Of a DNA stretch of 64,000 nucleotides, positions 28,628 to 47,009 are shown in pieces (within the stretch, counting starts at the first letter, position 1; the number at the start of each line of letters is the position of its first letter). The notes under the pieces were generated by a model. The model ran no database searches. It saw only the letters and a program-made list of their open reading frames with translations, and was not told the DNA's origin. Source of the stretch: Bacteroides clarus YIT 12056 (GTDB taxonomy: Bacteria > Bacteroidota > Bacteroidia > Bacteroidales > Bacteroidaceae); the NCBI RefSeq assembly GCF_900129655.1, contig NZ_FQWK01000001.1:434001-498000 (forward strand), in the 5' to 3' direction. The translations under genes and the position numbers were made by a program.

Positions 28628-29971
28628 ATGAAGAAGGAATATTTGATTTACAAGCTCTCTGAGGACCTGAAAGAAGCGACCAGGATTGAGAACGAACTGT
28701 TCAAGAAGTTTGATGTAAAGCGCGGTTTGCGTAATGAGGATGGAACGGGGGTATTGGTCGGATTGACCAAAATTGGTAATGTAGTAGGCTACGAACGTAT
28801 TCCGGGCGGTGGGTTAAAGCCTATTCCGGGTAAATTATTCTATCGTGGTTACGACCTTGAGGATTTGGCGCATGCCATTCTTAAAGAAAAACGTTTTGGC
28901 TTTGAAGAGGTAGCCTATCTGTTGCTTTCCGGTCGTCTTCCCGATAAGGAAGAGTTGATTTCCTTTCGCGAACTGATAAACGATAATATGCCGTTGGAAC
29001 AGAAAACGAAGATGAATATCATTGAACTCGAGGGAAACAATATTATGAACATTCTGGCACGTAGTGTGCTTGAGATGTATCGTTTCGACCCGAATGCCGA
29101 TGATACTTCCCGAGATAACCTGATGCGCCAAAGCATCGAACTGATTTCAAAGTTCCCAACTATCATAGCCTACGCCTTCAATATGCTTCGCCATGCCACT
29201 CATGGCCGTTCGTTGCACATCCGTCATCCACAGGAAAATCTTTCTCTCGCAGAAAACTTCTTGTATATGCTGAAAAAGGATTATACGGAACTGGATGCTC
29301 GTACTCTCGACCTGTTGCTGGTGTTGCAGGCAGAGCATGGCGGCGGTAACAACTCTACATTTACTGTACGTGTAACTTCTTCTACCGGGACGGATACTTA
29401 TTCTTCTATTGCAGCGGGTATCGGTTCTTTGAAAGGGCCGCTTCACGGCGGTGCCAATATTCAGGTTGCCGATATGTTCCACCATTTGCAGGAGAACATT
29501 CAGGATTGGACAAATGTGGATGAGATTGATACTTACTTTACCCGTATGTTGAACAAGGAGGTTTACAACAAGACGGGGCTGATATATGGTATCGGTCATG
29601 CCGTTTATACCATTTCCGATCCGCGTGCCATACTGTTGAAGGAACTTGCCCGCGACCTTGCTCGCGAGAAAGGCAAGGAACGTGAGTTCGCGTTCCTAGA
29701 ACTGCTGGAAGAACGTGCTATCGAAGTCTTTGGACGTGTGAAGAATAACGGAAAGACCGTTTCGAGCAATGTTGATTTCTATTCCGGCTTTGTATATGAG
29801 ATGATTGGTTTGCCGCAGGAAATCTTTACACCGCTGTTTGCTATGGCTCGTATCGTAGGTTGGTGTGCACACCGCAATGAGGAACTGAACTTCGAGGGTA
29901 AACGTATCATCCGCCCGGCGTACAAGAATGTATTGGATGATGTGACTTATATTCCTATCAAGAAACGTTAG
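28628..29971 (+). CDS. gltA: Citrate synthase
   Basis: The 447-residue citrate synthase condenses acetyl-CoA and oxaloacetate. The catalytic residues are visible: His in LQAEHGGGNNSTF, His in IYGIGHAVYTISDPR, and a C-terminal Asp in the SNVDFYSGFVY block. The protein has an extra N-terminal segment of about 50 residues relative to the small dimeric enzymes. It completes the acn-icd-gltA operon. In Bacteroides this branch supplies 2-oxoglutarate for glutamate synthesis, because much of the energy flux uses the reductive arm to succinate. Confidence 0.95.
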   Translation: MKKEYLIYKLSEDLKEATRIENELFKKFDVKRGLRNEDGTGVLVGLTKIGNVVGYERIPGGGLKPIPGKLFYRGYDLEDLAHAILKEKRFGFEEVAYLLLSGRLPDKEELISFRELINDNMPLEQKTKMNIIELEGNNIMNILARSVLEMYRFDPNADDTSRDNLMRQSIELISKFPTIIAYAFNMLRHATHGRSLHIRHPQENLSLAENFLYMLKKDYTELDARTLDLLLVLQAEHGGGNNSTFTVRVTSSTGTDTYSSIAAGIGSLKGPLHGGANIQVADMFHHLQENIQDWTNVDEIDTYFTRMLNKEVYNKTGLIYGIGHAVYTISDPRAILLKELARDLAREKGKEREFAFLELLEERAIEVFGRVKNNGKTVSSNVDFYSGFVYEMIGLPQEIFTPLFAMARIVGWCAHRNEELNFEGKRIIRPAYKNVLDDVTYIPIKKR

Positions 29972-30358
29972 AGAATAACAGTGTTCGTAATCATTTGAAG
30001 ATGGTTATGTATTTCATTTCTTTTTTCCTACGGGGAATTTGTCAGTGGTATAATTGACAAGTTCCCCGTAGAAAGTATAAGGCGGAAAGTTAGTGTATTT
30101 TGTTTGTAAATTATAAGCCTTCGGTTTCGATTATCAAAACTTTTGTTTCCGATTGGTGCAGATAATGCAATATTTCCTATTTGCTATCTGTTCTTTTCTA
30201 TATTCAAGACATCTTCTTGCGGTAATAGTATAATTAGTTGTCTATCCATATTTCCATTGTCTATATCAGAAATGGATATAATTCATTCTCTTCTTTAATT
30301 CAACGATATTTGTGATATGAGATTCGAGTTGGTCTCATGTTACAAAAGATGTTGAATT
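29972..30358. other. Intergenic region with a 17-bp stem-loop at 30028-30071
   Basis: CTACGGGGAATTTGTCA (30028-30044) pairs with TGACAAGTTCCCCGTAG (30055-30071), with one wobble and a 10-nt loop. A T-run precedes the left arm (30018-30026) but no T-run follows the right arm on either strand, so it is not a standard intrinsic terminator. The rest is AT-rich and gene-free and must hold the promoter of the fimbrial operon, which I could not place with confidence. Confidence 0.65.
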
Positions 30359-33151: not shown

Positions 33152-34989
33152 AGAAAGTTATAATACATATAATCCGTTTGTTCAGTTTGACTTTTCTCAT
33201 GCTGACGGCATCATGTGAACATGAGACGCTTTTGGTGGAGAACCCGGAAGGGGAGACAGTTGCGGAAGAAAAGGTACAGATTGAAATCTTTACCCGTGTC
33301 AACTCATATCGACTTCCGGCGACAAGAGGATTGGAAGATGAGGAAACCGTTGGCAAAACCCCGTGGGTATTTGTGTTTAAGGGAGCAGGCGGAAATGCCC
33401 GGCTGATAGAAGTTGTACAAGCTTTTGAGATGATAAAGAAAAGATATGTACTCCTGACGAAACAAGCTGATGATAGTAAATATCAACTATTGATATTGGC
33501 TAATCCCCAGGTGGAGTTTTATTATGGTGATGCGGTGAACGGTTATGAGTTTAATATGGAAAAACTGTTGGGAAAGATGAAGCCGGGTGTTGTGACCTTG
33601 TCTGAGGTTTGTGAGAATCTGCTGACAGAACCATTGGCAACTCCTGCGCTTGCGGTTATGCCGTTTAATTATAGTGGCGCAACTATTCCGATGAGCTATT
33701 TACTGGAAGTAGACCGAGTGGATAATACGACCCAAATAGCCAATGCTGACGGAAGTCCGTTATTGCTTGTTCGTTCTATCGCTAAAATGACAGTTACCAA
33801 TAAGGCCGTTAATTTTGAACTGAAAGGAATTACCGCAGTGGTCAATGTTCCCCGACAAGGGCAACTTCATAATTGGGGAAATTCTGTAATGGACAATACT
33901 TCTAATCTGACCGAATACAGAACTGATGCCGGCTACTCGGCTCCTTTGATAATGCCGGAAACGGTTAACGATTGGCAACAGACGGGAAACAGTCCTGTTT
34001 ATTTGTACGAGTCAGGTATGCAAAATAATACTTATCTCATTCTTCAAGGGACTTACGAAGGTAAAGATTACTATTATAAAATGGCATTGATCGGTAGCGG
34101 CAAACATATGCTGGATATACTGCGTAATCATGCTTATGCATTCACGATTAATACAGTGAACGGACCGGGATATGATACGGTAGCGGACGCCAAGGCATCG
34201 AAAGCATCCAATGTCGATATTGATTATAGCATCTTGATAGATGATAGTAATACGTATGAGGTAGTTGCCAATAACGATTACTATTTGGGAGTAAGCAATT
34301 CTGTGTTCATTGCCTATACGGATGAGAATAAAGACCATGAGGCCTTCGAGTTTATCACTGATTGTAAAACTGATTTTCCGGAGGCAAAAACAATTCGTGA
34401 TAATGAGAATATGCTGGCCGGCGGTGTATTCGGCTTGAAAAAACCGATTGACGGGCTTATACCTATCGTGAATCAAGAAACAACCGATCCGCGTAAAACG
34501 GCAGTGGAAGTATATGTTTCCAATTGGTTAAAATGGTATGAAGATACCCAATATTATCAAGGTGTGAGAAGAGATAACGCATATATAACGCTTAAGTTGG
34601 GTAATCTTGTAAAATCCGTTCATATCAGACAAAGGGATGCCCTTCCGGCAGGGGGAACGACCTTGAAATATATGCCGACCGGAAATACGGATGTTGCCGT
34701 GCATGAAATGAATTATTATTGTCTTTCAGCCTTTGTGGAGAAGGGTAGTGATAATCCGCCGGCTTGGATAAAACTCCGTCCTTCCACCGGAGCGGCAAGG
34801 GATGATACGGAAAGTATAACGGTGGATGACGGGAAGATATATATTGAAGTATTACCCAATGTAGCCTCTGCGCCGCGAACGGGTATTATATACTTGGTTA
34901 CAATAAGAGATCCTGACGGATCGGTTGGAAGCCATGTTACTCAACGGATTAAAGTAAGTGTCACCCAATTAGGGAAAAGCATTTCATAA
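33148..34989 (+). CDS. Fimbrial accessory lipoprotein (DUF4906-like)
   Basis: I choose the ATG at 33148, which overlaps the TGA of the upstream gene (ATGA), because it gives a lipoprotein signal (MKKVIIHIIRLF, lipobox T-A-S-C). A longer frame from 33064 would bury this signal. The 613-residue protein has a FimB/Mfa2-like first half (PWVFVFKGAGG, ILANPQVEF, VRSIAKMTV) and a BACON/Ig-like C-terminal half with VHIRQRDALPAGGTT and a terminal KVSVTQLGK. It is probably a minor or tip component of the fimbria, translationally coupled to the first gene. Confidence 0.7.
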   Translation: MKKVIIHIIRLFSLTFLMLTASCEHETLLVENPEGETVAEEKVQIEIFTRVNSYRLPATRGLEDEETVGKTPWVFVFKGAGGNARLIEVVQAFEMIKKRYVLLTKQADDSKYQLLILANPQVEFYYGDAVNGYEFNMEKLLGKMKPGVVTLSEVCENLLTEPLATPALAVMPFNYSGATIPMSYLLEVDRVDNTTQIANADGSPLLLVRSIAKMTVTNKAVNFELKGITAVVNVPRQGQLHNWGNSVMDNTSNLTEYRTDAGYSAPLIMPETVNDWQQTGNSPVYLYESGMQNNTYLILQGTYEGKDYYYKMALIGSGKHMLDILRNHAYAFTINTVNGPGYDTVADAKASKASNVDIDYSILIDDSNTYEVVANNDYYLGVSNSVFIAYTDENKDHEAFEFITDCKTDFPEAKTIRDNENMLAGGVFGLKKPIDGLIPIVNQETTDPRKTAVEVYVSNWLKWYEDTQYYQGVRRDNAYITLKLGNLVKSVHIRQRDALPAGGTTLKYMPTGNTDVAVHEMNYYCLSAFVEKGSDNPPAWIKLRPSTGAARDDTESITVDDGKIYIEVLPNVASAPRTGIIYLVTIRDPDGSVGSHVTQRIKVSVTQLGKSIS

Positions 34990-35005
34990 CCTAATAAAAA
35001 TATAA

Positions 35006-35578
35006 ATGAAGAAAGTATTGATATTCATATTGTTGATGTCGGGATGCTTTATCTCGGAGGGTCAAGCGCAGAAAATTGCTTTGAAGAGTAATCTTCTATA
35101 TGACTTTACCGGAACTCTGAATTTGGGAGTAGAGATAGGCTTGGGACGTAAATGGACATTAGAAGTGCCGGTTAATTATAATCCGTGGAAGCCGGATAGC
35201 GGTAGACGCCTGCGGCATTGGGGGATACAACCGGAAGCCCGTTATTGGTTCTGTGAACGTTTCAACCGCACTTTTGTAGGACTGCACGGGCATTATGCCG
35301 ATTTCAATGTCGGTGGCTGGCCGGACTGGTCTTTCATAAGCAAGAATATGCAACGTAACCGTTATCAGGGACATTTGTACGGTGGCGGTATCTCGATAGG
35401 ACATTCTTGGATATTGAAGAAACGTTGGAGTATAGAGGCTTCTTTGGGGTTGGGATATGCGCATATTGTATACGAGAAATATCCGTGTGCTACATGTGGC
35501 ACGAAGTTGAAAGATGGCAATAAAAATTATTTCGGGCCTACTAAGGCAAGTGTGGCATTGATTTATGTAATTAAATAG
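35006..35578 (+). CDS. DUF3575 family fimbria-associated protein
   Basis: The 190-residue protein has a signal peptide ending G-Q-A-Q and the DUF3575 signature: KSNLLYDFTGTLNLGVEIGLGRKW, then PEARYWFCERF, GLHGHYADFNVGG and GGGISIGHSW. The many aromatic-flanked strands suggest a small outer-membrane barrel. The family is regularly encoded directly upstream of DUF3868/Mfa-type fimbrial genes. It follows the accessory lipoprotein by 16 nt and precedes the DUF3868 gene by 9 nt. The molecular role is not known. Confidence 0.85.
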   Translation: MKKVLIFILLMSGCFISEGQAQKIALKSNLLYDFTGTLNLGVEIGLGRKWTLEVPVNYNPWKPDSGRRLRHWGIQPEARYWFCERFNRTFVGLHGHYADFNVGGWPDWSFISKNMQRNRYQGHLYGGGISIGHSWILKKRWSIEASLGLGYAHIVYEKYPCATCGTKLKDGNKNYFGPTKASVALIYVIK

Positions 35579-35587
35579 AATAAAAAA

Positions 35588-37096
35588 ATGAAGAGAAATA
35601 TACAATTTATCCTATTCGTATTCTTTGCTTTATGCTTGAGCCAAGCTGCAGCTCAGAAACGTCCTTACAGTGGAACTATAAATATAGAACCGGTGAGGTT
35701 TGAGCAGCATGGCGATTTTCTTCATATAGAAATAAATTTTATTACGGATGGTATGAAAGTGAAATCCGTACGCAGTGTGAATTTTACCCCCCAGTTGATT
35801 TCTTCGTCGGATACTTGTAATCTTCCGGAAGTCTCTTTTAAAGGGCGGAATGAGTTTTTGGCCTATGAGCGTACACTCGCCATATCGGCTAAAAAAAATG
35901 CGGACTTAAAGAAACCTTATGCTGTGCAAAGGGGCTATGGAATACGAAACGATACGCTTCGCTACCGATACGTGATACCTTATGAACCCTGGATGGCTGA
36001 CGCCCGCCTTGACATCCGGAGTGAAGAATGCGGTTGCGGAGAAACAGTATTTATGAATATGCAGACGGTTACCGATAAAGTTGTGCTTGAGCGTTTGTTG
36101 ACTCCGTATGTTGTAGTTCCTCATTTGACTTATGTGGAACCGGTAACGGAGAAAGTGAAAAACAGAGAAATACAAGTAGAGTGTTTCTTGGATTTTGAGG
36201 TGAACAAAGTGGACATCCGTCCCGAATATATGAATAATCCTGTGGAACTGACTAAGATTCATACGGCAATTGATGACTTGAAATCAGATAAAAGTATTGA
36301 AGTACAGCGTTTGGAGATAATCGGCTATGCTTCTCCTGAAGGGACATTGGCTGTAAACAAGCGGTTATCCGAGGGACGGGCGATGGCATTACGCCGTTAT
36401 CTGACTGCCCGATATGATTTTCCACGAAATCTGTATCATATCGTTTTTGGCGGTGAAAACTGGGAGGGTTTGGTCAAAGCGCTCCATACCATTGACATGG
36501 ATTATAAGGATGAGGTGCTGGAGATTATAAAGAATACGTCTGTCGAAGAAGGGCGGGAAACGAAATTGATGCGGCTGCATGGTGGAGTACCCTATCGGTA
36601 TCTCCTGAAGAACATATTTCCAGGCCTTCGTGTAGCCATTTGTAAAGTGAATTATGATATTAGGAATTTCAGTATGGATGAAGCGAAAGATATGATAAAA
36701 AAACGTCCGCAGAATCTGAGTCTGAATGAATTGTTCTTGGTAGCTGATAGTTACCCTAAAGGTTCGCAGGAATTTATAGAGGTCTTTGAAACGGCTGTAA
36801 GGCTATATCCGGAAGATGAAGTTGCCAATATTAACGCAGCTTCTGCATGCCTTCTGCGTGGTGATACGCTTTCCGCGGAGCGTTATTTGAAAAAAGTGAA
36901 ATCGAATAAGTATTTACCGGAGTATAACAATGCCGTGGGAGTACTTGCATTATTGAAAGGAGATTATGAACAGGCGGAGAAACATTTAAGGACGGCTGTA
37001 AAGCTGGGAGTGGCGATAGCCGAAGAGAATTTAAAGGAATTGGCGGAGAAAAAGGCTAATGCCATTGAGATTGAATCCCGGAGAGGGAACAGATAG
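35588..37096 (+). CDS. DUF3868-OmpA-TPR fimbrial assembly protein
   Basis: The 502-residue protein has a signal peptide (ending QAAAQ), an N-terminal DUF3868 domain (about residues 24-190, with GMKVKSVRSVNFTPQL), an OmpA/MotB-like domain (FEVNKVDIRPEY to LEIIGYASPEGT, NKRLSEGRAMALRRYL) and C-terminal TPR-like helices (NINAASACLLRGD, LLKGDYEQAEKHLRTA). It is the outer-membrane or periplasmic partner that typically accompanies DUF3575 and the Mfa/Fim subunits. The OmpA domain would hold it to peptidoglycan. Confidence 0.85.
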   Translation: MKRNIQFILFVFFALCLSQAAAQKRPYSGTINIEPVRFEQHGDFLHIEINFITDGMKVKSVRSVNFTPQLISSSDTCNLPEVSFKGRNEFLAYERTLAISAKKNADLKKPYAVQRGYGIRNDTLRYRYVIPYEPWMADARLDIRSEECGCGETVFMNMQTVTDKVVLERLLTPYVVVPHLTYVEPVTEKVKNREIQVECFLDFEVNKVDIRPEYMNNPVELTKIHTAIDDLKSDKSIEVQRLEIIGYASPEGTLAVNKRLSEGRAMALRRYLTARYDFPRNLYHIVFGGENWEGLVKALHTIDMDYKDEVLEIIKNTSVEEGRETKLMRLHGGVPYRYLLKNIFPGLRVAICKVNYDIRNFSMDEAKDMIKKRPQNLSLNELFLVADSYPKGSQEFIEVFETAVRLYPEDEVANINAASACLLRGDTLSAERYLKKVKSNKYLPEYNNAVGVLALLKGDYEQAEKHLRTAVKLGVAIAEENLKELAEKKANAIEIESRRGNR

Positions 37097-37138
37097 AATA
37101 AACGTAGATTGAACAGTATTAATTAAAATGTAGAAGAA

Positions 37139-38752
37139 ATGAGAAAAAGAAATTATTTTTTGTTAGCACTTGCATCGATGGCATTTGCTGCATGTAGTAA
37201 TGATGATTTTGTAGCGGATGTAGACAATGGAATCATTACTGAACCGACCGGTGATGCATGGGTGGCATTGAATGTCAGACCGCCGTCTTTGGCGTCTACT
37301 CGTGGATTGCACGTACCCGACCATGAAAATGGTACACCTGCCGAAACAGAGATTAAATCTGTTAGAGCCATATTTTTCACATCAGGAGCAAGCCCTACCG
37401 TGACTGCCGATATTGAACTTACTTTGTCGCAGGCGGGAGCAAACGCTTCGGGACAGCCCACCGGAAATGCCGGGGAAGCATTCAAAGTTCCGGCTGCTTC
37501 CAAACGTGTTTTGATTGTAGCCAACGCTTCCAAAGAGTTTAAAGACAAAGCGCCAAGCGGCTGGAGCGGTGGTACTCCTTACGCTACGGTTAACGATGCA
37601 CTCGTTCTTAGCACTGGGAACGGAGTTTTAAGCTTTACCGATGGTTTTATGATGTCTAATGCCAAAGGAGGCTTGGAACCTTCCAAGACCGAAGAACCGG
37701 GATTGGGCGACCCGGTAGACCTGACCCTCTATAAAAATGCGACGGGAGCGGTAGCCAATCCGTTGGTTATTAATATAGACCGTGTGGTTGCAAAAGTCCG
37801 TGTTTTCATCACTAAAGCAAGTGATGTGGCTTCCATCGAAAATGAAGGTTGGCTTTTGAACGCTACCAATACGAAGTTCTATCCGACATCGGAAAGAATC
37901 TCCACTTGGTTTGAACTGAATCCGGCCGGTGGTTTCCGTGCGCCGTTCGACCAGTATAAAAAAGGTTCTTATAGGAAAGACCCTAATTATGACGCTCCGC
38001 ATTCCGGAGTGGATTATACTTACATTACTACCGACCCCGGTACTTGGAATGTATCGAATACCAGTGAATACTGCCTTGAAAATACCCAGGATAAAGCAGG
38101 AAATGTACATGCTTATACCACCCACGTATTGTTGAGAGCCAAGTTTATACCTAAGAAATATAAGAAAGCTGATATGACGGACACCGATGTCCAGGATGCA
38201 ACGGGAGACTGGATGCTGATTGATGGCGGTTACTACACTTTTGCCACTTTAACGGAATGGATTGAAGCCGAATTGAAATATAAATATAGCAAGGCTGTTC
38301 CAACCTCGATAACTACTCCGCTTACTACTGCATATAACAAGTATTTAGGAGCGGATGGAGTAAATGTCGGTGAGGTTACTTTGCCGGATGCCGCTGATGA
38401 TACTGAAATAGGAGACTTGGTGAATAAGTTTACCGGAAAAAGGGCTTCGGTTATTGGCGTTGAGGACAGAGGGAAAACTGTAGGCAGCCTTACGTATTAT
38501 AAAAATGCCTTCAATTATTACAAGATCATGATTAAGCATGATGACACCGACCTGGCGGTGAATGAGCTGGGAGAGTTTGGCGTTGTCCGTAACTCGGTTT
38601 ACGATATTAATGTCAACAAATTCAATAATCCTGGCTATCCCGACGTGCCCAAACCGGATCCGGGTGAGGAAGATGAAGACGAGGACGGTTGGCTGTCAAT
38701 CAAGATTAATGTGAATCCTTGGACTTGGTATACTCAGACAGAGGAACTGTGA
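37139..38752 (+). CDS. Mfa1-family major fimbrial subunit
   Basis: The 537-residue pre-fimbrillin has a lipoprotein signal (lipobox F-A-A-C at residues 16-19) and an N-terminal domain with an Arg-containing site, S-T-R-G-L-H (near residues 53-58). In related Porphyromonas subunits such an Arg site is cleaved to release the donor-strand groove. The fold has the two-domain shape of FimA/Mfa1 proteins (VRAIFFTSG, VLIVANASKEF, VVAKVRVFIT). The C-terminus NVNPWTWYTQTEEL is the characteristic strand that swaps into the next subunit. It precedes the Mfa2 anchor gene in the usual order. Confidence 0.9.
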   Translation: MRKRNYFLLALASMAFAACSNDDFVADVDNGIITEPTGDAWVALNVRPPSLASTRGLHVPDHENGTPAETEIKSVRAIFFTSGASPTVTADIELTLSQAGANASGQPTGNAGEAFKVPAASKRVLIVANASKEFKDKAPSGWSGGTPYATVNDALVLSTGNGVLSFTDGFMMSNAKGGLEPSKTEEPGLGDPVDLTLYKNATGAVANPLVINIDRVVAKVRVFITKASDVASIENEGWLLNATNTKFYPTSERISTWFELNPAGGFRAPFDQYKKGSYRKDPNYDAPHSGVDYTYITTDPGTWNVSNTSEYCLENTQDKAGNVHAYTTHVLLRAKFIPKKYKKADMTDTDVQDATGDWMLIDGGYYTFATLTEWIEAELKYKYSKAVPTSITTPLTTAYNKYLGADGVNVGEVTLPDAADDTEIGDLVNKFTGKRASVIGVEDRGKTVGSLTYYKNAFNYYKIMIKHDDTDLAVNELGEFGVVRNSVYDINVNKFNNPGYPDVPKPDPGEEDEDEDGWLSIKINVNPWTWYTQTEEL

Positions 38753-38882
38753 CGACAGCTTGGTAAAGCAATCTTCATACTGTATAAAGGTAGGGAGGAG
38801 AGAACTTCTCCCATACTTTTATCTTGATGGGAAGGTTCTCGGAAGATTCTCAAGAAATTTGAAAATGGTAAAAAAGGAAAAT

Positions 38883-39842
38883 ATGAAACAGGGAATACTT
38901 GTGCGTTACATGGTTACCGGGATGCTTATCGTTACTTCGTGGATGATAACTTCTTGCAATAGCTTCAATGAACATTTGCCGGAATGCCGTTTGTTTGTCA
39001 AATTCAAATATGATTATAATATGCTTTTTACAGATGCGTTTCATACGCAGGTGGATAAAGTGGAGCTTTATGTGTTTGACAAGGAGGGGTTGTTCTTATT
39101 TAAGCAGATGGAAGAAGGTGATGCTCTGTCAACGGGTAATTACCGGATGGAAGTAGAACTGTCTGTCGGTGAGTACCAATTTATGGCATGGGCAGGCGCA
39201 CGTGGTTCGTATGATATCGTTTCTTTGATTCCGGGAGTCTCTTCTATTACAGAGTTGAGATTACAATTAAAACGGGAAGAATCCTTGATTGTTCTGCATG
39301 AGTTGGAGCCGCTTTGGTATGGTGAGATTCATAATATTGCGTTTACAGGAACAGATAATCAGGTGGAGACTATTAATTTGATAAAGGATACCAATAAAGT
39401 AAGGTTTATATTCCAGGGGTACTCGGATGATAGCTGGAAACTGAATGTGGAGGATTATGATTACGAAATCATAGAATCCAACGGGCATTTGGGACATGAT
39501 AATTCATTGTTGGATGATGATGTCCTGAGCTTCCGTCCGTATCATATGGAGCAAAGAAACCCTTCGGCGGCCGCTGTTGAGTTGAATACGATGCGATTGA
39601 TGTCGGATCGTCAAACCCGTTTTGTCGTGACTGAAAAAAATACAAGGAAAAAGGTGTTTAACATAAATCTGATTGATTATCTGGCAATGACGGATATGGA
39701 AGGCAACAATTGGGGAGTGCAAGAATATCTTGACCGTCAGGATGAGTATAAAATAGTCTTTTTCTTTTCCGAACCATGGCATGCCGTCCAAATTAATATC
39801 AATGGCTGGACTCATTATATTCAGCCGGAGGAAGAGATGTAG
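38883..39842 (+). CDS. FimB/Mfa2-family fimbrial anchor subunit
   Basis: I choose the ATG at 38883, preceded by AAAAGGAAAAT, because it gives a lipoprotein signal ending I-T-S-C. The longest frame from a TTG at 38760 adds an unlikely leader. The 319-residue protein has the Mfa2 signature: CRLFVKFKYDYN, VDKVELYVFDKEG, GEYQFMAWAG and a terminal ININGWTHYIQPEEEM. Mfa2 proteins anchor the fimbria in the outer membrane and limit its length. It is the last gene of the operon; a perfect 16-bp bidirectional terminator follows. Confidence 0.9.
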   Translation: MKQGILVRYMVTGMLIVTSWMITSCNSFNEHLPECRLFVKFKYDYNMLFTDAFHTQVDKVELYVFDKEGLFLFKQMEEGDALSTGNYRMEVELSVGEYQFMAWAGARGSYDIVSLIPGVSSITELRLQLKREESLIVLHELEPLWYGEIHNIAFTGTDNQVETINLIKDTNKVRFIFQGYSDDSWKLNVEDYDYEIIESNGHLGHDNSLLDDDVLSFRPYHMEQRNPSAAAVELNTMRLMSDRQTRFVVTEKNTRKKVFNINLIDYLAMTDMEGNNWGVQEYLDRQDEYKIVFFFSEPWHAVQININGWTHYIQPEEEM

Positions 39843-39867
39843 ATACGGGACAAGATGACTTATTGCT

Positions 39868-39905
39868 CAAAAGGGTAAACCGGCATATCCCGGTTTACCC
39901 TTTTG
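39868..39905. terminator. Bidirectional terminator after the fimbrial operon
   Basis: CAAAAGGGTAAACCGG (39868-39883) pairs perfectly with CCGGTTTACCCTTTTG (39890-39905) around a 6-nt loop. The stem ends in A and T runs on either side, so it can end both the fimbrial transcript and the convergent regulator gene. Confidence 0.9.
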
Positions 39906-39924
39906 AACGTTTATTCGAGTGCAG

Positions 39925-40887
39925 CTATAAAGTTTCGATTATCCTCCTTTGCCTTTCAAGGAAAGCGATGCGTTGTGCTTCTCCGCTTCCAGAAATAAGT
40001 GTGGAATGCCTTTTCAAAGATTGTATCCAGTCCTTTTGCATTTGGCAGATATGCGGATTTTGCGAATCCATGAAATTGATGGAATATACTCTGAAGAGAC
40101 TGATTTGGAAATCTTTTTTCGTTATATAGCTGTATGTTGCCTCAAAATTTATATTTGATAAATAGATGGAGGCTTCATGACCGTTGTTGAATTGTCCCTT
40201 GACGGACAGCCTTTCCAGTTCGGTGAGTAACTGTAACAGTTCCTCCTTTAGATGGATGCCGTCATTGGCTGAGATTAGGTTTAGTTCGGCAAAGTACTTT
40301 ATTTCTTTCACGAGTGAATGGAATATGTCCGTATCCCATATGAAATAGGTCTTTCCGCATCTTTTCATGCTGTTGCTTAACTCATTATGAGCGGCCACGA
40401 TTTTTTCCTGAACCTGCATTTCCGCTAAGGAATTCGGCGTTTTTATCTTTTCATACTGATACATCCAGTGGCATAACCTGAATTTGGAAAGATATTCATA
40501 GGAAGAGTAGAGAGTGAAAGGAATCGTGTTGGAAGCTGTATATATTTCGGTACTGCTATCTCCTTTTACGAAGTTGAAAACCTGCAGGTAATGTTCTATA
40601 ATTTCATTATAGCTTTTAAACAAGTCCGGTGAGAGTAACAAGTTTACATCGAATGTGGCGCGGTTAGGAAGGTGATTTCCTATTATCTGGTCGATGGAAA
40701 TCCCGAAATTACAGGAAATCATTGCTATCTCATCGAAAGTGAACGCGACTTCTCCGCGCAGCCTGCGGTAAACGGACTCTTTTCCCATACATAGGGTATC
40801 TGCCAGATAATTGGCCAAATTCTGTCCGTGGGGTATTCTCTCTTTCATTTCATCAATCAGGTTTGTTACAATATAGTTCTTATTCAT
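39925..40887 (-). CDS. HTH-type regulator, paralogue 1
   Basis: The 320-residue protein has an N-terminal HTH (about residues 20-70): NLANYLADTLCMGKESVYRRLRGEVAFTFDEIAMIS, followed by NFGISIDQIIG. This resembles XRE-like or Cro-like DNA-binding folds. The remaining 250 residues are helical with conserved motifs shared with the paralogue upstream (LSKFRL, WMYQ, IYLSNINFEATYSY, EWIQSLKR/KK, LISGSGE / LISESGE, QRI). The C-terminal family name is not known to me. It ends at the shared terminator with the fimbrial operon, so it may regulate fimbriae, but that is inferred from position only. Confidence 0.75.
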   Translation of the reverse strand: MNKNYIVTNLIDEMKERIPHGQNLANYLADTLCMGKESVYRRLRGEVAFTFDEIAMISCNFGISIDQIIGNHLPNRATFDVNLLLSPDLFKSYNEIIEHYLQVFNFVKGDSSTEIYTASNTIPFTLYSSYEYLSKFRLCHWMYQYEKIKTPNSLAEMQVQEKIVAAHNELSNSMKRCGKTYFIWDTDIFHSLVKEIKYFAELNLISANDGIHLKEELLQLLTELERLSVKGQFNNGHEASIYLSNINFEATYSYITKKDFQISLFRVYSINFMDSQNPHICQMQKDWIQSLKRHSTLISGSGEAQRIAFLERQRRIIETL

Positions 40888-40947
40888 AATTCACTTCCCA
40901 TATTTAGTTATTAATTCGAGACTTGGCATAAAGATTTGTGGTATCTG

Positions 40948-40955
40948 CAAATATA
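40948..40955 (-). promoter_or_regulatory. Probable -7 element of HTH paralogue 1
   Basis: CAAATATA on the plus strand reads TATATTTG on the minus strand, 60 nt before the ATG. No clear -33 element accompanies it. Confidence 0.45.
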
Positions 40956-41051
40956 GAATTAGATGATGAAACATTGGTGAACTATATCATGTATGGAGGA
41001 TGGTGTCTTTTTCTATTTGAAAGGATTGGAAGGATAAAACATTGTCGAATG

Positions 41052-41083
41052 AAAAAGACAGGTAGAAATTCTATCTGTCTTTC
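41052..41083 (-). terminator. Terminator after HTH paralogue 2
   Basis: The minus strand reads AAAGACAGATAGAA, then TTCTACCTGTCTTT, and continues into a T-run (plus-strand AAAAA at 41052-41056). The stem has one wobble pair. It lies 52 nt after the stop codon of the gene at 41135-42094, so the two paralogues are probably separate units. Confidence 0.75.
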
Positions 41084-41134
41084 ATTATCAGACACATTTG
41101 AGGTTTGGTTTTTCAGATTTCGGCAAACAGGGAA

Positions 41135-42094
41135 TTAAAGTGCGTTGATAATTTCCCTTTGCTTTTTAAAAAACAGGATACGCTGCATCTCACCGCTTTC
41201 CGATATCAGGGTGGAGAACTTCTTTAATGATTGAATCCATTCTTTGAAATCGCCGAACATTTCATTGTCTTGCGTTGTGATAGAATTAATGGCATATACT
41301 CTAATCATACTTAAGTGCATGGAAGTTGTTTCCAGATAACTGTAAGTCGCTTCAAAGTTTATATTGGATATATAGATTCTTATATCATTACCGGTCTCGG
41401 ATTTTCCCCGGCCGGCGAGTTCTTCCAGTTCGTCAATCAATAAAAGCGTCTCTTCTTTGATGTTGTCTTTATTTTCCTCTGACAGTAAATGGATATCCGA
41501 GAAATACTGAATATCGTTTACCAGATTACTGAAAATCATTTTATCCCAGATGTAATCTCTGGAATGTATGTGAGATGTCATTCGGGTAAATTCTCTTTGT
41601 ACGTTGATGAGCTTTTGGGGTATTTCCAGTTCATCGAAATGCTTGCATCTCATGCTTTCGTTTTGGTACATCCATTTGAATAGCCTGAATTTGGAAAGTA
41701 TATCGTGCTTCATTGAAAGAGTCAGTGGAATGATGTTCGATGAAGTTCCCATTTCCGAACTCGTATCCCCTTTTATGGTATGGAACAGTTTCACGTATCG
41801 GTCGAGAATTGTGAAATAAGTCTCGAAAGGGTTCTGATAGTCTACGATATTCATGTCGAATACGGCATTTTCCCGGAAACTCGTTCCTATAATGGTATCC
41901 AGGGATATACCTAATTTCCTTGATAGGATAGCCGCTTCGGCCAACGTAAAGGGTACTTCGCCTCTTAAACGGCGATAGGTGGCTTCTTTCCCTATATAAA
42001 GAATATCCATTAAAGTGTTTGCCAAATTATCTTTTTGCGGAAGTTTGGTTTTGACAGCTTCAATGATTCCTGTGCTTAGCTCGTCTGTAATCAT
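41135..42094 (-). CDS. HTH-type regulator, paralogue 2
   Basis: The 319-residue protein aligns end to end with the gene 247 nt downstream on the same strand. Its HTH region is NLANTLMDILYIGKEATYRRLRGEVPFTLAEAAILS, then KLGISLDTIIG. Shared C-terminal blocks include LSKFRLFKWMYQ, YISNINFEATYSYLE and LISESGEMQRI. The pair looks like a tandem duplication that has diverged. An array of 22-bp-spaced palindromes lies about 120 bp before its start codon and could be its own operator or that of a divergent gene. The exact family is not recognised. Confidence 0.75.
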   Translation of the reverse strand: MITDELSTGIIEAVKTKLPQKDNLANTLMDILYIGKEATYRRLRGEVPFTLAEAAILSRKLGISLDTIIGTSFRENAVFDMNIVDYQNPFETYFTILDRYVKLFHTIKGDTSSEMGTSSNIIPLTLSMKHDILSKFRLFKWMYQNESMRCKHFDELEIPQKLINVQREFTRMTSHIHSRDYIWDKMIFSNLVNDIQYFSDIHLLSEENKDNIKEETLLLIDELEELAGRGKSETGNDIRIYISNINFEATYSYLETTSMHLSMIRVYAINSITTQDNEMFGDFKEWIQSLKKFSTLISESGEMQRILFFKKQREIINAL

Positions 42095-42215
42095 GATTTT
42101 TGTGAGTTATATATTTATATGATTATCCCTGTTTATACCTCTGGATGAGAACCGGTATGATTTAGGATGTTTCCTTTGCTGCATCTGCCAAGCTCTTCCC
42201 TATGGTGATTGACTG

Positions 42216-42303
42216 TTAAAAGGCTTTTAGATTGATATTAAAAGGCTTTCAATACTATATTATAAGGCTTTTAATATCATATTGTAAGGCTTCTAATAAT
42301 ATC
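42216..42303. repeat. Four TAAAAGGCTTTTA-like elements at exact 22-bp period
   Basis: Elements beginning TTAAAAGGCTTTTAG, TTAAAAGGCTTTCAA, TTATAAGGCTTTTAA and TTGTAAGGCTTCTAA start at 42216, 42238, 42260 and 42282. Each is a short imperfect palindrome around a central G (AAG-G-CTT), and the spacers are AT-rich. The core is unrelated to that of the array at 3263, but the 22-bp period is identical. The array lies between HTH paralogue 2 (minus) and the plus-strand genes starting at 42454 or 42627. Confidence 0.85.
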
Positions 42304-42453
42304 TCAGCCGTAAGTGTATCTTATCTTCCATCTGCCTTTTTCTCGTTTAAAGGGTATTTACTGCGGAGAATCATATATGATTTATCTATTTAACACTTAT
42401 CTCATCAGTCTTGTTTCGAAATATGCAACATATCTATTAAGTCTGACGAATTA

Positions 42454-42612
42454 ATGAACTCCGGAATCAATATTCATGGAATGTTCGCTATCAGAAAAAA
42501 GAGAGGCTGGAAAGACATTCTTTTAGCCATGGAACTTTATCGGCTGTGGAGTAATTTTGCCATGCAGCCCGGAAGACCGTATAGGTGGGATGGGTATGGA
42601 AAATATCATTAA
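42454..42612 (+). CDS. Small open reading frame (52 aa), possible gene
   Basis: This ATG-to-TAA frame encodes a basic, aromatic-rich peptide with KKRGWKDILLAMELYRLW and a C-terminal RPYRWDGYGKYH. It ends 14 nt before the next gene's likely start at 42627, which is compatible with co-transcription. It has no signal peptide and I recognise no family. It could be a chance frame in a long intergenic region. Confidence 0.3.
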   Translation: MNSGINIHGMFAIRKKRGWKDILLAMELYRLWSNFAMQPGRPYRWDGYGKYH

Positions 42613-42626
42613 AGAGTGTGGTAAAT

Positions 42627-43010
42627 ATGGAGAAGATACTGAATACACCGTTTATAAAAGATATATATGATCCTTTGACAGGTTCTCACGACGGTACTAT
42701 TACCCCGAGTGCGCCTATTGTAGTGACCGGTGAGAATTTGCGTTTATCCGCTTTGGAGGAAATTGTGTTAGGACTTGCCCCGCTTGAAAATAGCGGTTGT
42801 CCGATACAAATCAGTCATGTCTGTAAATATACGGATACGCAATTGTTGGTCGTTCTTCCCAATTTGGATCCGGGTACATATTCTCCGGTGTTACAAGTAT
42901 ATGAGGCGGGGAAGCTGGTGCTTGTTTATGTTTTTCCGGTGGTATGGAGAGTTTGCAGGGAGGGTGATGTTGATTATTCGATTAGATATTACCGCAATAA
43001 GATTATTTGA
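42627..43010 (+). CDS. Small Ig-like protein, DUF4469-like
   Basis: From the ATG at 42627 (a longer frame starts at 42585) the protein is 127 residues. It contains FIKDIYDPLTGSHDGTITPSAPIVVTGENLRL, then LVVLPNLDPGTYSPVLQVYE, matching the pattern of the DUF4469 Ig-like domain found at the C-terminus of some Bacteroides HU-like proteins (D-x-x-G-x-x-x-D-G-T-I-T-P, V-x-G-x-N-L-x-L, P-x-L-x-x-G-T-Y). No HU domain is present. It has no signal peptide, so it is cytoplasmic. It lies 60 nt before the 5-alpha-reductase-like gene; a functional link is not evident. Confidence 0.55.
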   Translation: MEKILNTPFIKDIYDPLTGSHDGTITPSAPIVVTGENLRLSALEEIVLGLAPLENSGCPIQISHVCKYTDTQLLVVLPNLDPGTYSPVLQVYEAGKLVLVYVFPVVWRVCREGDVDYSIRYYRNKII

Positions 43011-43042
43011 ACGGCATTGATACCGGTTTCGTGAGTTTTCCG

Positions 43043-43050
43043 TATATTTG
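43043..43050 (+). promoter_or_regulatory. Probable -7 element of the reductase cluster
   Basis: TATATTTG lies 21 nt before the ATG at 43071, between the Ig-like gene and the cluster, suggesting the cluster has its own promoter. The -33 region (TTGA near 43017) is weak. Confidence 0.55.
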
Positions 43051-43070
43051 TTGCACTTAAATTGAATAAT

Positions 43071-43844
43071 ATGAGTCAACAAACATTTCAAGTGTTCCTA
43101 TGTGCGATGGGCTTAACGGCTCTTTTCGTTTTTATTGCGCTTTATTTCATTAAGGCCGGTTATGGAATGTTTCGTACAGCTTCGTGGGGTGTATCTATTG
43201 ATAACAAGTTAGCCTGGATATTGATGGAGTCTCCCGTTTTCTTTGTGATGTTGATTCTTTGGGCGTATAGTGGAACGGGTACTGCCGTACCGGAATTTAT
43301 TTTTCTGTTGTTATTTTTGCTGCACTATTTTCAGCGTTCGTTTATCTTTCCGCTATTATTAAAAGGTAAGTCCCGCATGCCGGTCGCCATCATGGCGATG
43401 GGTATTGTTTTTAATCTGCTGAACGGGATAATGCAGGCGGGCGGAATTTTCTATTTCACCGTAGAAGGGCAGCAATATGCTGCCGGCTGGCACTATTTCC
43501 TTTCTTTTCGGGGGATTGGGGGATTATTGCTGTTTTTCATAGGAATGGGGATAAACCTGCATTCCGATTATGTGATACGCCATTTGCGTAAGCCCGGTGA
43601 TACAAGACATTATCTTCCGAATAAAGGCCTTTATCGATATATCACGTCCGCCAACTATTTCGGTGAGTTGGTGGAATGGGTGGGATTTGCAGTGCTGACG
43701 GCTTCTCCGGCTGCCTGGGTTTTTGTGTGGTGGACATTTGCCAATTTGGTACCCCGCGCAGATGCGATTAACAAACACTATCGTGCGGAATTTGGTGTTG
43801 AGGCCGTAGGAAAAAGAAAATGTATTATACCTTTTGTATATTAA
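43071..43844 (+). CDS. Steroid 5-alpha-reductase family membrane protein
   Basis: I use the ATG at 43071 rather than a TTG 9 nt upstream. The 257-residue protein has several membrane helices and the C-terminal NADPH-binding signature of 3-oxo-5-alpha-steroid 4-dehydrogenases: DYVIRHLRKPGDTRHYLPNKGLYRYITSANYFGELVEWVGFA, then a terminal Y-R-A-E-F-G. The family saturates the delta-4 double bond of 3-oxo-steroids to the 5-alpha product. It is 12 nt upstream of an old-yellow-enzyme-like gene and in the same operon as a short-chain dehydrogenase. Homologous three-enzyme sets in gut Bacteroidales act on 3-oxo-delta-4 bile acids, so that substrate is the best guess. Confidence 0.85.
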   Translation: MSQQTFQVFLCAMGLTALFVFIALYFIKAGYGMFRTASWGVSIDNKLAWILMESPVFFVMLILWAYSGTGTAVPEFIFLLLFLLHYFQRSFIFPLLLKGKSRMPVAIMAMGIVFNLLNGIMQAGGIFYFTVEGQQYAAGWHYFLSFRGIGGLLLFFIGMGINLHSDYVIRHLRKPGDTRHYLPNKGLYRYITSANYFGELVEWVGFAVLTASPAAWVFVWWTFANLVPRADAINKHYRAEFGVEAVGKRKCIIPFVY

Positions 43845-43856
43845 AGATAAGGAATA

Positions 43857-45083
43857 ATGGGAAACTCAAAATTATTCACACCGGTCACTTTCGGACCGCT
43901 GACTTTACGCAACCGTACCATCCGTTCGGCCGCTTTTGAGAGTATGTGTCCGGGCAATGCGCCTTCGGATATGCTGCTCGACTATCATCGCTCGGTCGCG
44001 GCGGGCGGTATCGGTATGACTACCGTGGCTTATGCCGCCGTTACCCGGAGCGGCCTTTCTTTTGACCGCCAGTTGTGGATGCGTCCTGAAATCATTCCGG
44101 GACTTCGCAAGCTGACTGATGCGATACACGCGGAGGGCGCTGCTGCCGGCATTCAGTTGGGGCATTGCGGGAATATGTCGCATAAAAGTATTTGCGGATG
44201 TACTCCTGTCGGTGCAAGCGGTGGCTTTAACCTGTATTCACCCACTTTTGTACGAGGGCTGCGTGCCGATGAATTGCCGGAGATGGCGCATGCCTACGGG
44301 CGTTCGGTGAATCTGGCGCGTGAGGCGGGGTTTGATGCTGTGGAAATCCATGCGGGGCATGGTTATCTTATCAGCCAGTTCCTTTCACCCTCTACCAATC
44401 ATCGTAAAGATGAATTCGGCGGTTCGTTGCAGAACCGTATGCGTTTTATGGATATGGTAATGGAGGAGGTGATGAAGGCTGCCGGCAGTGATATGGCGGT
44501 ACTTGTGAAGATGAACATGCGTGACGGATTCCGGGGTGGTATGGAGATGGACGAAACGATGCAGGTGGCCAAGCGTCTCGAACAGTCGGGAGCGCACGGG
44601 CTGGTGCTGAGTGGCGGGTTTGTAAGCAAAGCCCCTATGTATGTGATGCGCGGGGAAATGCCGATTCGCAGCATGACGCATTATATGACGTGCTGGTGGT
44701 TGAAGTACGGAGTACGCATGGCAGGTAAGTGGATGATACCCGCTGTGCCGTTTAAAGAAGCCTATTTCCTGGAAGATGCCTTGAAGTTCCGTGCGGAGTT
44801 GAAGATGCCGTTGATATACGTAGGCGGACTGGTGTCGCGTTCCAAAATAGACGAGGTTTTGGACGATGGTTTTGATGCCGTACAAATGGCGCGTGCGCTA
44901 CTTAATGAACCGGGCTTTGTGAACCGTATGCGTGATGAGGAGAACGCGCGCTGTAATTGCAGGCATAGCAACTATTGTATAGCACGGATGTACTCCATTG
45001 AAATGGCTTGTCATCAGCATTTGGGCGAGGAGCTTCCGGCTTGCTTGAAGCGGGAGATTGAGAGAATAGAAGCGAAAGGGTGA
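43857..45083 (+). CDS. NADH:flavin oxidoreductase, old-yellow-enzyme family (5-beta-reductase candidate)
   Basis: The 408-residue TIM-barrel protein starts LFTPVTFGPLTLRNRTIRSAAFE, the FMN-binding start of the family, and has GIQLGHCGNMS, AREAGFDAVEIHAGHGYLISQFLSPSTN and the FGGSLQNRMRF block. Near the C-terminus are four Cys residues (R-C-N-C-R-H-S-N-Y-C-I, and a later one), in the place where BaiCD/2,4-dienoyl-CoA-reductase relatives bind a 4Fe-4S cluster. The protein ends soon after and lacks the C-terminal FAD/NAD domain of those relatives. Context with a 5-alpha-reductase and an SDR suggests delta-4-3-ketosteroid 5-beta-reduction; this is inference. Confidence 0.85.
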   Translation: MGNSKLFTPVTFGPLTLRNRTIRSAAFESMCPGNAPSDMLLDYHRSVAAGGIGMTTVAYAAVTRSGLSFDRQLWMRPEIIPGLRKLTDAIHAEGAAAGIQLGHCGNMSHKSICGCTPVGASGGFNLYSPTFVRGLRADELPEMAHAYGRSVNLAREAGFDAVEIHAGHGYLISQFLSPSTNHRKDEFGGSLQNRMRFMDMVMEEVMKAAGSDMAVLVKMNMRDGFRGGMEMDETMQVAKRLEQSGAHGLVLSGGFVSKAPMYVMRGEMPIRSMTHYMTCWWLKYGVRMAGKWMIPAVPFKEAYFLEDALKFRAELKMPLIYVGGLVSRSKIDEVLDDGFDAVQMARALLNEPGFVNRMRDEENARCNCRHSNYCIARMYSIEMACHQHLGEELPACLKREIERIEAKG

Positions 45084-45130
45084 TTACCGTCTTCTTGGAT
45101 TTTGTAATTTATAATTTGTAACAGATAAAC

Positions 45131-45970
45131 GTGAAACTTGCTATCATAACCGGTGCAGACGGCGGTATGGGAACGGAAATAACGCGCGCTGTGGCTAAGG
45201 CCGGATATAAGATTATTATGGCTTGTTACCGTCCGGAAAAGGCGGAGAAGGTGAGGGAAATGTTGGTGCGAGATACGGGCAATCCGCATCTTGAGGTATT
45301 GGGCGTAGACTTGTCTTCGCTTGCGTCTGTGGCGGCTTTTGCCGAAACCGTTTTGAAACGTGGCGATGCTGTCAGTCTGCTGATGAATAATGCGGGGACG
45401 ATGGAAACGTGCCGCCGTATCACGGAGGATGGTTTGGAACGTACGGTAAGCGTTAATTATGTCGCTCCTTATTTATTGACACGCAAGCTTCTTCCTCTGA
45501 TGGGAGAGGGAAGCCGTATCGTTAATATGGTATCTTGTACCTATGCTGTCGGATGTCTCGACTTTCCCGATTTCTTTCTTCAGGGAAGGAAAGGAGGCTT
45601 CTGGCGTATTCCTGTGTACAGTAATACGAAACTGGCGCTGACTTTGTTTACTCTTAATCTGGCTGCCCGTCTTAAAGAAAAAGGTATTGTGGTTAATGCG
45701 GCTGACCCGGGCATTGTTTCCACCAATATCATAACGATGCACATGTGGTTCGACCCGTTGACGGATATTCTTTTCCGTCCTTTCATCCGTACTCCCAGTA
45801 AAGGGGCCGCAACGGCTGTTCATCTGCTGCTGGATGAGGATGCGGGAAAACGTACGGGTACTCTGAATGTAAGTTGCCGTCCGAAACCGCTTTCCGGAAA
45901 GTTCACCGACCATGTGCAGATGCAGGAGTTGTGGGACAGTACGGAGAGGATTGTGGAGAAGTGGTTATAA
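45131..45970 (+). CDS. Short-chain dehydrogenase (hydroxysteroid dehydrogenase candidate)
   Basis: Translation starts at GTG (45131), giving 279 residues. The Rossmann motif is T-G-A-D-G-G-M-G at residues 8-15, followed by MNNAG, and the catalytic Tyr-x-x-x-Lys is Y-S-N-T-K. The C-terminal region has ADPGIVSTNI. The retinol-dehydrogenase-like arrangement (Arg-Pro-Glu-Lys after beta-2) suggests NADP(H) preference. It is the third gene of the operon, 47 nt after the flavin oxidoreductase. A 3-beta-hydroxysteroid dehydrogenase role is suggested by analogy with bile-acid clusters; other ketone or alcohol substrates cannot be excluded. Confidence 0.82.
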   Translation: MKLAIITGADGGMGTEITRAVAKAGYKIIMACYRPEKAEKVREMLVRDTGNPHLEVLGVDLSSLASVAAFAETVLKRGDAVSLLMNNAGTMETCRRITEDGLERTVSVNYVAPYLLTRKLLPLMGEGSRIVNMVSCTYAVGCLDFPDFFLQGRKGGFWRIPVYSNTKLALTLFTLNLAARLKEKGIVVNAADPGIVSTNIITMHMWFDPLTDILFRPFIRTPSKGAATAVHLLLDEDAGKRTGTLNVSCRPKPLSGKFTDHVQMQELWDSTERIVEKWL

Positions 45971-46016
45971 TGCAAAAGGCGCAAGATTCCACTCTTGCGC
46001 CTTTTGCATTATATTT
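45968..46016. terminator. Bidirectional terminator between the SDR gene and pfkA
   Basis: A 19-bp perfect stem (45968-45986 with 45993-46011, core GGCGCAAGA / TCTTGCGCC) has a 6-nt loop. The left arm begins within the SDR stop codon. Short T/A-rich runs follow on both sides. Confidence 0.85.
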
Positions 46017-46028: not shown

Positions 46029-47009
46029 TCAAATGGAAAGTGCTCTCAATACATTGACCAAGTCTTTCTTGATAGGCTTGTCGTTCTTGATGGCTTTTGT
46101 GAAAGGTACATAAACCACTTCATCATGGTCTATACCTATCATGACATTGCGCTGTCCTTCCATAATGGCATCTACTGCCGCCGCACCCAAACGGCTGGCA
46201 AGGATACGGTCGTGCGCTGTAGGACTGCCACCACGTTGTAGATGGCCGAGGATTGTAACACGTACGTCGTATTGAGGATATTCGTTTTTCACACGTTCGG
46301 CATAGTGCATGGCGCCGCCGGTTAATTCGCTTTCGGCAACGAGTACGATACTGCTGTTCTTGGATTTGCGGAAACCGTTCTTGATGAACTCTTCCAGTTG
46401 GTCTACTTCGGTGCTGAATTCCGGGATAATGGCTGCCTCTGCTCCGGATGCGATGGCGCCGTTCAGGGCGAGGAAACCGGCGTCACGTCCCATAACTTCA
46501 ACGAAGAAAAGACGTTCGTGTGAAGTTGCCGTATCGCGAATCTTGTCCACAGCACCCAGAATCGTATTCAAGGCGGTGTCATAGCCGATGGTTGTATCTG
46601 TGCCGTAAAGGTCGTTGTCGATTGTTCCCGGTAAGCCGATGCATGGTACATCGAATTCCTGCGCGAAGATACGTGCGCCTGTCAAAGAACCGTCTCCACC
46701 GATAACTACCAAGGCGTCAATGCCTTCTTTCTTCATGTTGTCGTATGCAATCTGACGCCCTTCGGGAGTGGTGAATTCCTTGCAACGCGCTGTTTTCAGG
46801 ATAGTACCGCCCAATTGGATGATATTGCTTACATTCTGGCTTTTGAATTCTTTGATTTCACCGGTTACCAAACCTTTGTAACCTCTATATATGCCTTTTA
46901 CTTGAAGTCCGTTGTAAATAGCTGCGCGTGTCACCGCACGAATCGCCGCATTCATTCCCGGAGCGTCACCGCCCGATGTTAAAATACCGATACACTTAAT
47001 TGTTCCCAT
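46029..47009 (-). CDS. pfkA: 6-phosphofructokinase
   Basis: PfkA phosphorylates fructose-6-phosphate with ATP. The 326-residue protein has the ATP-binding [10 protein letters not shown], the catalytic T-I-D-N-D region ([14 protein letters not shown]), GGDGSL and the substrate-binding [10 protein letters not shown] block. GGD at the ATP site is the ATP-dependent, not pyrophosphate-dependent, form. The protein is standard length for bacterial PfkA. It is monocistronic, with its own -7 element 47 nt upstream. Confidence 0.96.

Follow-up and report, generated by a model that had tools for sequence, protein, structure and literature searches.

A three-gene locus of Bacteroides clarus resembling the steroid 5alpha-reductase, 5beta-reductase and 3beta-hydroxysteroid dehydrogenase cluster of gut Bacteroidota

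A gene cluster for a steroid 5alpha-reductase (5AR), a 5beta-reductase (5BR) and a 3beta-hydroxysteroid dehydrogenase (3beta-HSDH) in Parabacteroides merdae was reportedly described by Sato et al. in 2021 and by Li et al. in 2021. Here we describe a locus of similar make-up in a 64,000-nucleotide stretch of Bacteroides clarus YIT 12056 (contig NZ_FQWK01000001.1, positions 434,001 to 498,000; hereafter the window), in which genes for a 5AR, an Old Yellow Enzyme (OYE) and a short-chain dehydrogenase (SDR) follow one another on the + strand. The kind of cluster is already in print, and the window is one more carrier.

In PMC10382948, conversion of 3-oxo-delta4-lithocholic acid (3-oxo-delta4-LCA) into isoalloLCA is reported for P. 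merdae, Odoribacter laneus and B. dorei strains. In the same source the alloLCA derivatives were lost when the 5AR gene of P. merdae was disrupted, and that gene forms a cluster with those for a predicted 3beta-HSDH and for an NADH:flavin oxidoreductase. Conversion of 3-oxoLCA to isoalloLCA has been credited to Bacteroidetes clusters that unite 5beta-reductase, 5alpha-reductase and 3beta-HSDH, and 5alpha-reductase activity is described as demonstrated in Bacteroides uniformis (PMC12589954, citing Sato 2021). The 5AR gene was also found in Bacteroidetes isolated from chickens, P. distasonis and two isolates of Odoribacter being the exceptions (PMC6069880). BaiP and BaiJ of Firmicutes yield allo (5alpha) bile acids as well; unlike the membrane 5ARs of Bacteroidetes, they are flavoproteins and are stated to occur in Firmicutes only. 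No term starting with Bacteroid- occurs in the text of a Clostridium steroid-reductase paper (PMC12238238).

Reviews credit flat secondary bile acids, isoalloLCA among them, with the promotion of regulatory T cells and the inhibition of C. difficile, and gut 5-alpha-reductase genes were statistically linked to the dihydrotestosterone/testosterone (DHT/T) ratio of women (PMC12589954). Once it is known which Bacteroidota have all three genes, which have some of them, and where residues depart from those of the human drug target, the connection between species and product can be tested directly. The window adds one carrier and three points open to experiment, namely the 5AR triad, an iron-sulfur (Fe-S) ligand and the exchange of a 5AR allele.

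The cluster, its putative transcription signals and its distribution

We consider it probable that the window holds a Bacteroides copy of the Bacteroidota 5AR-5BR-3beta-HSDH cluster, which would change the A/B ring junction of 3-oxo-steroids from bent (5beta) to flat (5alpha). Enzyme make-up, gene order, a promoter motif, catalytic residues and co-occurrence were observed directly, and the reactions are assigned by analogy with what has been printed on relatives. The OYE would interconvert a 3-oxo-5beta-steroid and its 3-oxo-delta4 form, the 5AR would reduce the delta4 bond to the 5alpha form at the expense of NADPH, and the SDR would reduce the 3-oxo group to a 3beta-hydroxyl. Lithocholic acid derivatives would in this way end up as isoalloLCA. 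The 5beta-to-delta4 step is carried out in bile-salt degraders by enzymes of the OYE family.

The first gene (43071..43844, ATG start) encodes a 257-aa membrane steroid 5-alpha-reductase of the SRD5A family (Steroid_dh, PF02544, 1.6e-34); in the open reading frame (ORF) list it begins at a TTG 9 nt before this ATG. After a gap of 12 nt comes the gene (43857..45083, ATG start) for a 408-aa single-domain flavin mononucleotide (FMN) OYE (Oxidored_FMN, PF00724, 1.3e-54), the putative 3-oxo-5beta-steroid delta4-dehydrogenase or 5beta-reductase ("5BR"). A further 47 nt separates it from the gene (45131..45970, GTG start) for a 279-aa SDR (adh_short, PF00106, 4e-32), which we call type 2 and take as the putative 3beta-HSDH. 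An initial annotation of this DNA had described three enzyme genes encoded together with these two gaps, and both the coordinates and the Pfam matches agree with it. It had also likened the trio to a bile-acid or steroid reduction pathway, which is supported in part: the enzyme make-up matches that of the Bacteroidota cluster of the reviews, and the gene order is that of the Parabacteroides loci described below.

Upstream of the 5AR gene, TATATTTG (43043..43050, + strand), which ends 20 nt 5' of the start codon, matches TAnnTTTG, the -7 promoter element of Bacteroides. The motif was present within 60 nt 5' of the 5AR gene in 39 of 57 loci and absent from a 60-nt control stretch inside the gene in all 57 (loci with a 5AR match from residue 1 on the + strand and at least 90 nt of upstream sequence). 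Taken alone it is frequent in the window, with 60 matches against 53 expected. At the other end, a terminator-like hairpin (45966..46013) with a 21-bp stem and a 6-nt loop lies between the SDR gene and a convergent phosphofructokinase gene (46029-47009, - strand, PF00365). Its folding energy was -35.2 kcal/mol (z = -8.65), which none of 200 shuffles equalled, in keeping with the common terminator that had been proposed for the cluster. Because there is one promoter and one terminator, 5AR-OYE-SDR is likely a single transcription unit. The phosphofructokinase neighbor also aligned in loci L059, L061, L077 and L114.

We examined how often the genes occur together in 295 genomes of the order Bacteroidales, of which 63 had a 5AR (1e-30) and 49 an OYE (1e-60). 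Where the 5AR scored at least 350 bits, the OYE (E <= 1e-60) was present too in 34 of 35 genomes; the 5AR gene lay 6-506 nt upstream of the OYE gene on the same strand in 29 of the 35. On account of this co-occurrence and adjacency we do not regard the clustering as chance. Within Bacteroides, PF02544 was found in 16 of 25 genomes (five of the nine others were under 90% complete), and two further near-complete genomes of the genus (G083, G189) had neither 5AR nor OYE. In the genus that we took as Parabacteroides, because its locus L144 agrees in coordinates and identities with the named Parabacteroides contig L106, 20 of 38 genomes had a 5AR, and 17 of these 20 loci showed the order 5AR-OYE-SDR with an SDR of the window's type, of which only the first part was visible in the 1.5-kb flanks. 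The remaining three were cut by contig ends (L146, L161) or had a 5AR alone (L151/L212). The stand-alone 5AR of L212 (G331, 6.8 Mb, Parabacteroides group) had no such neighbors within 10.5 kb, and P. goldsteinii appears in a review table under 5AR only. As judged from review descriptions, the P. merdae cluster comprises the same three families, likewise clustered, and the window has the gene order of those 17 Parabacteroides loci; it differs from the P. merdae cluster in genus and in its 5AR allele, which most likely reflects recombination. The B. clarus genome also has one gene of the bile-salt-hydrolase family (PF02275).

The 5AR triad, the SDR types and alternative substrates

The 5AR is the sole PF02544 match in the 3.75-Mb genome and fits the SRD5A-type profile with 119.5 bits (cut-off 22.6). 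Among solved structures its nearest relatives were the steroid 5-alpha-reductases PbSRD5A (7c83, 1.4e-47) and human SRD5A2 (7bw1, 1.1e-37), with an enoyl-CoA reductase far behind (1.8e-05) and no prenol reductase among those compared. As to the concern raised in the initial annotation that the closest homologues might be fatty-acid or prenol reductases, the steroid enzymes stood ahead of the fatty-acid kind. Beyond the shared family, the protein keeps the catalytic pair, with Glu53 at the position of human E57 and Tyr86 at that of Y91, and several conserved Arg, Asn, Asp and Glu positions of human SRD5A2 and PbSRD5A. The roles of E57 and Y91 in the human enzyme are backed by mutation (PMC7591894).

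Met52 occupies the position of human Q56, the Gln of the QEY triad, which has been described as highly conserved across the enzymes studied (PMC7815742). Met-Glu-Tyr was found in 121 of 121 distinct Bacteroidales 5ARs, which differ in this from the human and proteobacterial enzymes with Gln-Glu-Tyr, and Met was also present in 12 of 12 more distant 5ARs of Bacteroidales; five weak PF02544 loci (L020-L024) are excluded from these counts. The counts of distinct sequences are based on hits in which the alignment covered at least 200 (5AR), 330 (OYE) or 220 (SDR) residues; merging of identical rows reduced 165 hits to 121, 179 to 136 and 85 to 84, respectively. The sequences were gathered by Bacteroidales queries or by adjacency, and invariance applies within that order. 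We did not treat the triad Gln as defining, because a Bacteroidota 5AR of such a cluster is active as judged by gene disruption.

Several points weigh against assigning the locus to the flat-steroid pathway. By alignment, the Gln of the steroid-carbonyl triad is replaced by Met in the Bacteroidota enzymes compared. Some genomes have a 5AR without such neighbors: lower-scoring 5ARs occurred in 28 of the 63 genomes, 12 of which had an OYE, and none was adjacent to it. The OYE has no flavin adenine dinucleotide (FAD) domain and, in its aligned sequence, one fewer than the four Cys of 5beta-delta4-KSTD1. In print, the 5beta-reductase role of the NADH:flavin oxidoreductase is only hypothesized (PMC10382948), and a review table, which is not primary data, has B. 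thetaiotaomicron under 5AR and not under 3beta-HSDH.

Among the alternatives, the one that fares best, although we hold it clearly less probable than the main reading, is that the same three enzymes work chiefly on steroid hormones of the host, or on delta4-3-keto steroids of other kinds (testosterone, progesterone, cholestenone), and on bile acids only secondarily. PbSRD5A, the nearest solved bacterial relative, is reported to prefer progesterone, and the three species with the strongest association to the gene include B. uniformis (PMC12589954). The evidence on hormones is association and not an assay on enzymes of this kind, however, and the 5AR that was disrupted in a Bacteroidota species is active on bile acids (PMC10382948). 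Both kinds of substrate may be used.

The third enzyme has the features of a classical SDR, with Ser135, Tyr163 and Lys167 (Ser-Tyr-xxx-Lys) in 84 of 84 distinct sequences and a Gly-rich TGxxxGxG motif that reads TGADGGMG in the window. When we surveyed operon forms at 80 named-genome loci picked by the OYE (80 of 588 relatives kept), 53 were 5AR-OYE-SDR of the window's type. Ten had a second SDR gene inserted, 5AR-OYE-SDR1-SDR, including Odoribacter, Sanguibacteroides, Barnesiella and Alistipes records, and seven, all Parabacteroides and one of them P. distasonis An897, had OYE-SDR1 and lacked 5AR. Four were 5AR-OYE with neither SDR type found, three showed no 5AR and began no more than 1 kb from the OYE, and three had other arrangements. 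SDR1 differs from the SDR of the window, with which it shares 22-26% identity, and its best match in the B. clarus genome reached only 33%. In the genomes of the seven OYE-SDR1 loci (L107, L105, L108, L111, L112, L116, L122), a query that matched 5AR elsewhere found it in 0 of 7. One of these is named P. distasonis, and a further P. distasonis contig (L027) is also OYE-SDR1 as far as its neighborhood goes. This arrangement fits poorly with the naming of P. distasonis, by association, as a likely gut source of 5AR (PMC12589954).

The two SDR types raise an alternative assignment that we think unlikely, in which SDR1 would be the bile-acid 3beta-HSDH wherever both occur and the window's type would reduce another position or substrate. 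In addition to their low identity and to the seven genomes with OYE-SDR1 and no 5AR, a review table credits P. distasonis (OYE-SDR1 in L027 and L107) with 3alpha- and 3beta-HSDH activity, and its listing of B. thetaiotaomicron under 5AR only points the same way. The identification of SDR1 as the characterized 3beta-HSDH is nevertheless weakened by the 17 of 20 Parabacteroides 5AR loci in which the window's type follows the OYE. It is also at odds with the description of the P. merdae 5AR as clustered with 3beta-HSDH and with the report that B. dorei, of the Bacteroidaceae, makes isoalloLCA from 3-oxo-delta4-LCA (both PMC10382948). We rate as very unlikely a role of the cluster on non-steroid lipids of bacterial or dietary origin, such as polyprenol, enoyl or plant compounds. 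The breadth of PF02544, its overlap with DUF1295 and the Met in the triad could suggest such a role; against it, the steroid reductases match far better than the enoyl-CoA reductase, the Glu/Tyr pair is conserved and a relative with such a cluster has a printed 5AR disruption phenotype (PMC10382948).

The flavoprotein and its altered cysteine motif

The OYE is the sole PF00724 match in the genome. His165, His168 and Tyr170 were present in 136 of 136 distinct sequences, and we take these to have the His/His/Tyr site roles of Old Yellow Enzymes in the FMN barrel. A predicted model (mean pLDDT 83) had Old Yellow Enzymes of the TsOYE/YqjM kind as its best PDB matches. The nearest named OYE was that of B. 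propionicigenes (97%), in a comparison from which own-species records may be excluded. The protein ends at residue 408, shortly past a Cys-rich motif, and models of BaiCD type match its barrel part only, so that the earlier description of a flavoprotein that stops soon after a Cys cluster and lacks the C-terminal FAD/NAD domain was accurate.

That description also called the cluster a candidate 4Fe-4S site, and here the agreement is partial. Three of the Cys (Cys368, Cys374 and Cys385) are present, and the motif is non-canonical, with Ser371 in place of the second Cys and His370 beside it. Among 131 distinct Bacteroidales OYEs, Cys368, Cys374 and Cys385 occurred in all, Cys371 in none and His370 in 129; the other two, both of one genus (L046, L048), have Cys at position 370. 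The remaining five of the 136 rows are non-Bacteroidales (L191-L195), and the motif varies among them. Burkholderia and Sphingobium relatives of similar length have four Cys with the spacing of KSTD1 (L193, L194), a Nocardia relative has the same His plus a Cys at 371, and a Rhodococcus relative has the His without that Cys (L191, L192).

The codons for Cys368 to Cys385 (44958..45011, + strand; C-x-H-x3-C-x10-C) mark a possible 3Cys/1His Fe-S site. The exchange of His and Cys at position 370 hints that this residue may be a ligand. On the other side, the Nocardia relative pairs the same His with Cys371, and the model is uncertain at this point (pLDDT <50 at residues 372-379), which may argue against such a site. 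Because Nocardia has both residues and Rhodococcus has His alone, the His may predate the loss of the second Cys. In a PDB profile search with the OYE, the five alignments shown did not extend to the motif.

The large FMN/FAD/Fe-S OYEs BaiCD, BaiH and 5beta-delta4-KSTD1 share with the window OYE the barrel, a remnant Fe-S motif and the proposed A-ring chemistry, and differ from it in having a C-terminal FAD/NAD part. The predicted 4Fe-4S ligands of 5beta-delta4-KSTD1 (C375, C378, C381, C393) form C-x2-C-x2-C-x11-C, compared to C-x2-S-x2-C-x10-C with an adjacent His in the window OYE. We rejected the OYE as a BaiCD orthologue: it scored 184.9 bits against a cut-off of 825, the FAD/NAD part is missing, and three Cys and a His stand in place of the four-Cys 4Fe-4S motif of BaiCD-type flavoenzymes.

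Many single-domain Old Yellow Enzymes take hydride straight from NAD(P)H. The use of a different electron donor, as suggested in the initial annotation, is not established for this OYE; the altered Fe-S motif and a related 5beta-dehydrogenase described as acting independently of NAD keep it in play. A more far-reaching reading, which we regard as doubtful, is that the OYE belongs to a distinct one-domain subclass with FMN and a 3Cys/1His site that would pass electrons between the 5beta/delta4 steroid step and an outside carrier other than NAD(P)H. The paired Met-Glu-Tyr 5AR would then have an altered grip on the carbonyl and possibly an altered response to finasteride-like drugs, and its gene would be swapped between species as a substrate-setting allele. 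What counts somewhat against this reading is that in the Nocardia relative the His stands together with the usual second Cys. If true in the laboratory, the Met-Glu-Tyr triad and the 3Cys/1His motif would be of greater interest than the cluster itself. The literature passages searched held no mention of the Met-Glu-Tyr triad, the altered Fe-S motif with His, the recombinant 5AR allele or the varied operon forms.

Probable exchange of the 5AR allele and the surroundings of the cluster

Comparison with B. propionicigenes (L058) gave DNA identities of 94% for the OYE gene, 92% for the SDR gene and 71% for the 5AR gene (window 43071-43844 against L058 3184-3951), and third-position identities of 0.86, 0.83 and 0.47, respectively. 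The change was abrupt at the 5AR/OYE junction, where identity per 100 nt rose from 63-77% within 5AR to mostly >90% (the lowest later blocks were 83-89%). In quick trees with a simple model, the window 5AR grouped with that of genome G022 (support 99, starred), and a clade of window and L058 was rejected (p-AU 0.0004 in the approximately unbiased (AU) test, the pair being chosen after the identities were known). In the SDR tree, window and L058 grouped together (support 99, starred); the G022 locus (L016) is absent from this tree because its SDR gene is truncated in the DNA retrieved. The OYE tree also joined window and L058 (support 86, unstarred), and a grouping of window and L016 was not rejected (p-AU 0.44). 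We believe that the 5AR gene was most likely exchanged by recombination in one of the lineages compared.

We also considered a plasmid-borne cluster and set this aside, as the two Bacteroidales matches in a plasmid collection look chromosomal. In the P. distasonis record there are gltB, pth and a gene for a ribosomal protein. That of P. massiliensis has no annotation, and the same set lies within a 3.1-Mb scaffold from this species (L079). Viral contigs gave no match to the cluster. Interrupted genes were seen at three loci. In B. fragilis S82 (L114, 4001-5207) the OYE is split across two frames near its start, which reflects either a sequencing error or a broken gene. Two pieces also make up the 5AR of L085, and the OYE of L044 (G237, Bacteroidales) has a single in-frame TGA.

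In L058, L077, L079, L088 and L114, a citrate-synthase-like gene lies directly upstream of 5AR. The gene at 28628-29971 in the window is, we assume, citrate-synthase-like, and here ~13 kb (29972-43070) separates it from 5AR. This interval includes a fimbrial gene set (Fimbrillin_C/FimA, Mfa2, DUF3575, DUF3868). It also holds, on the - strand, genes for two proteins of 319-320 aa (39925-40887 and 41135-42094) that have no Pfam match and are alike by eye. Just upstream of the 5AR promoter motif, a 141-aa ORF (42585-43010) with a DUF4469 domain is possibly a truncated gene.

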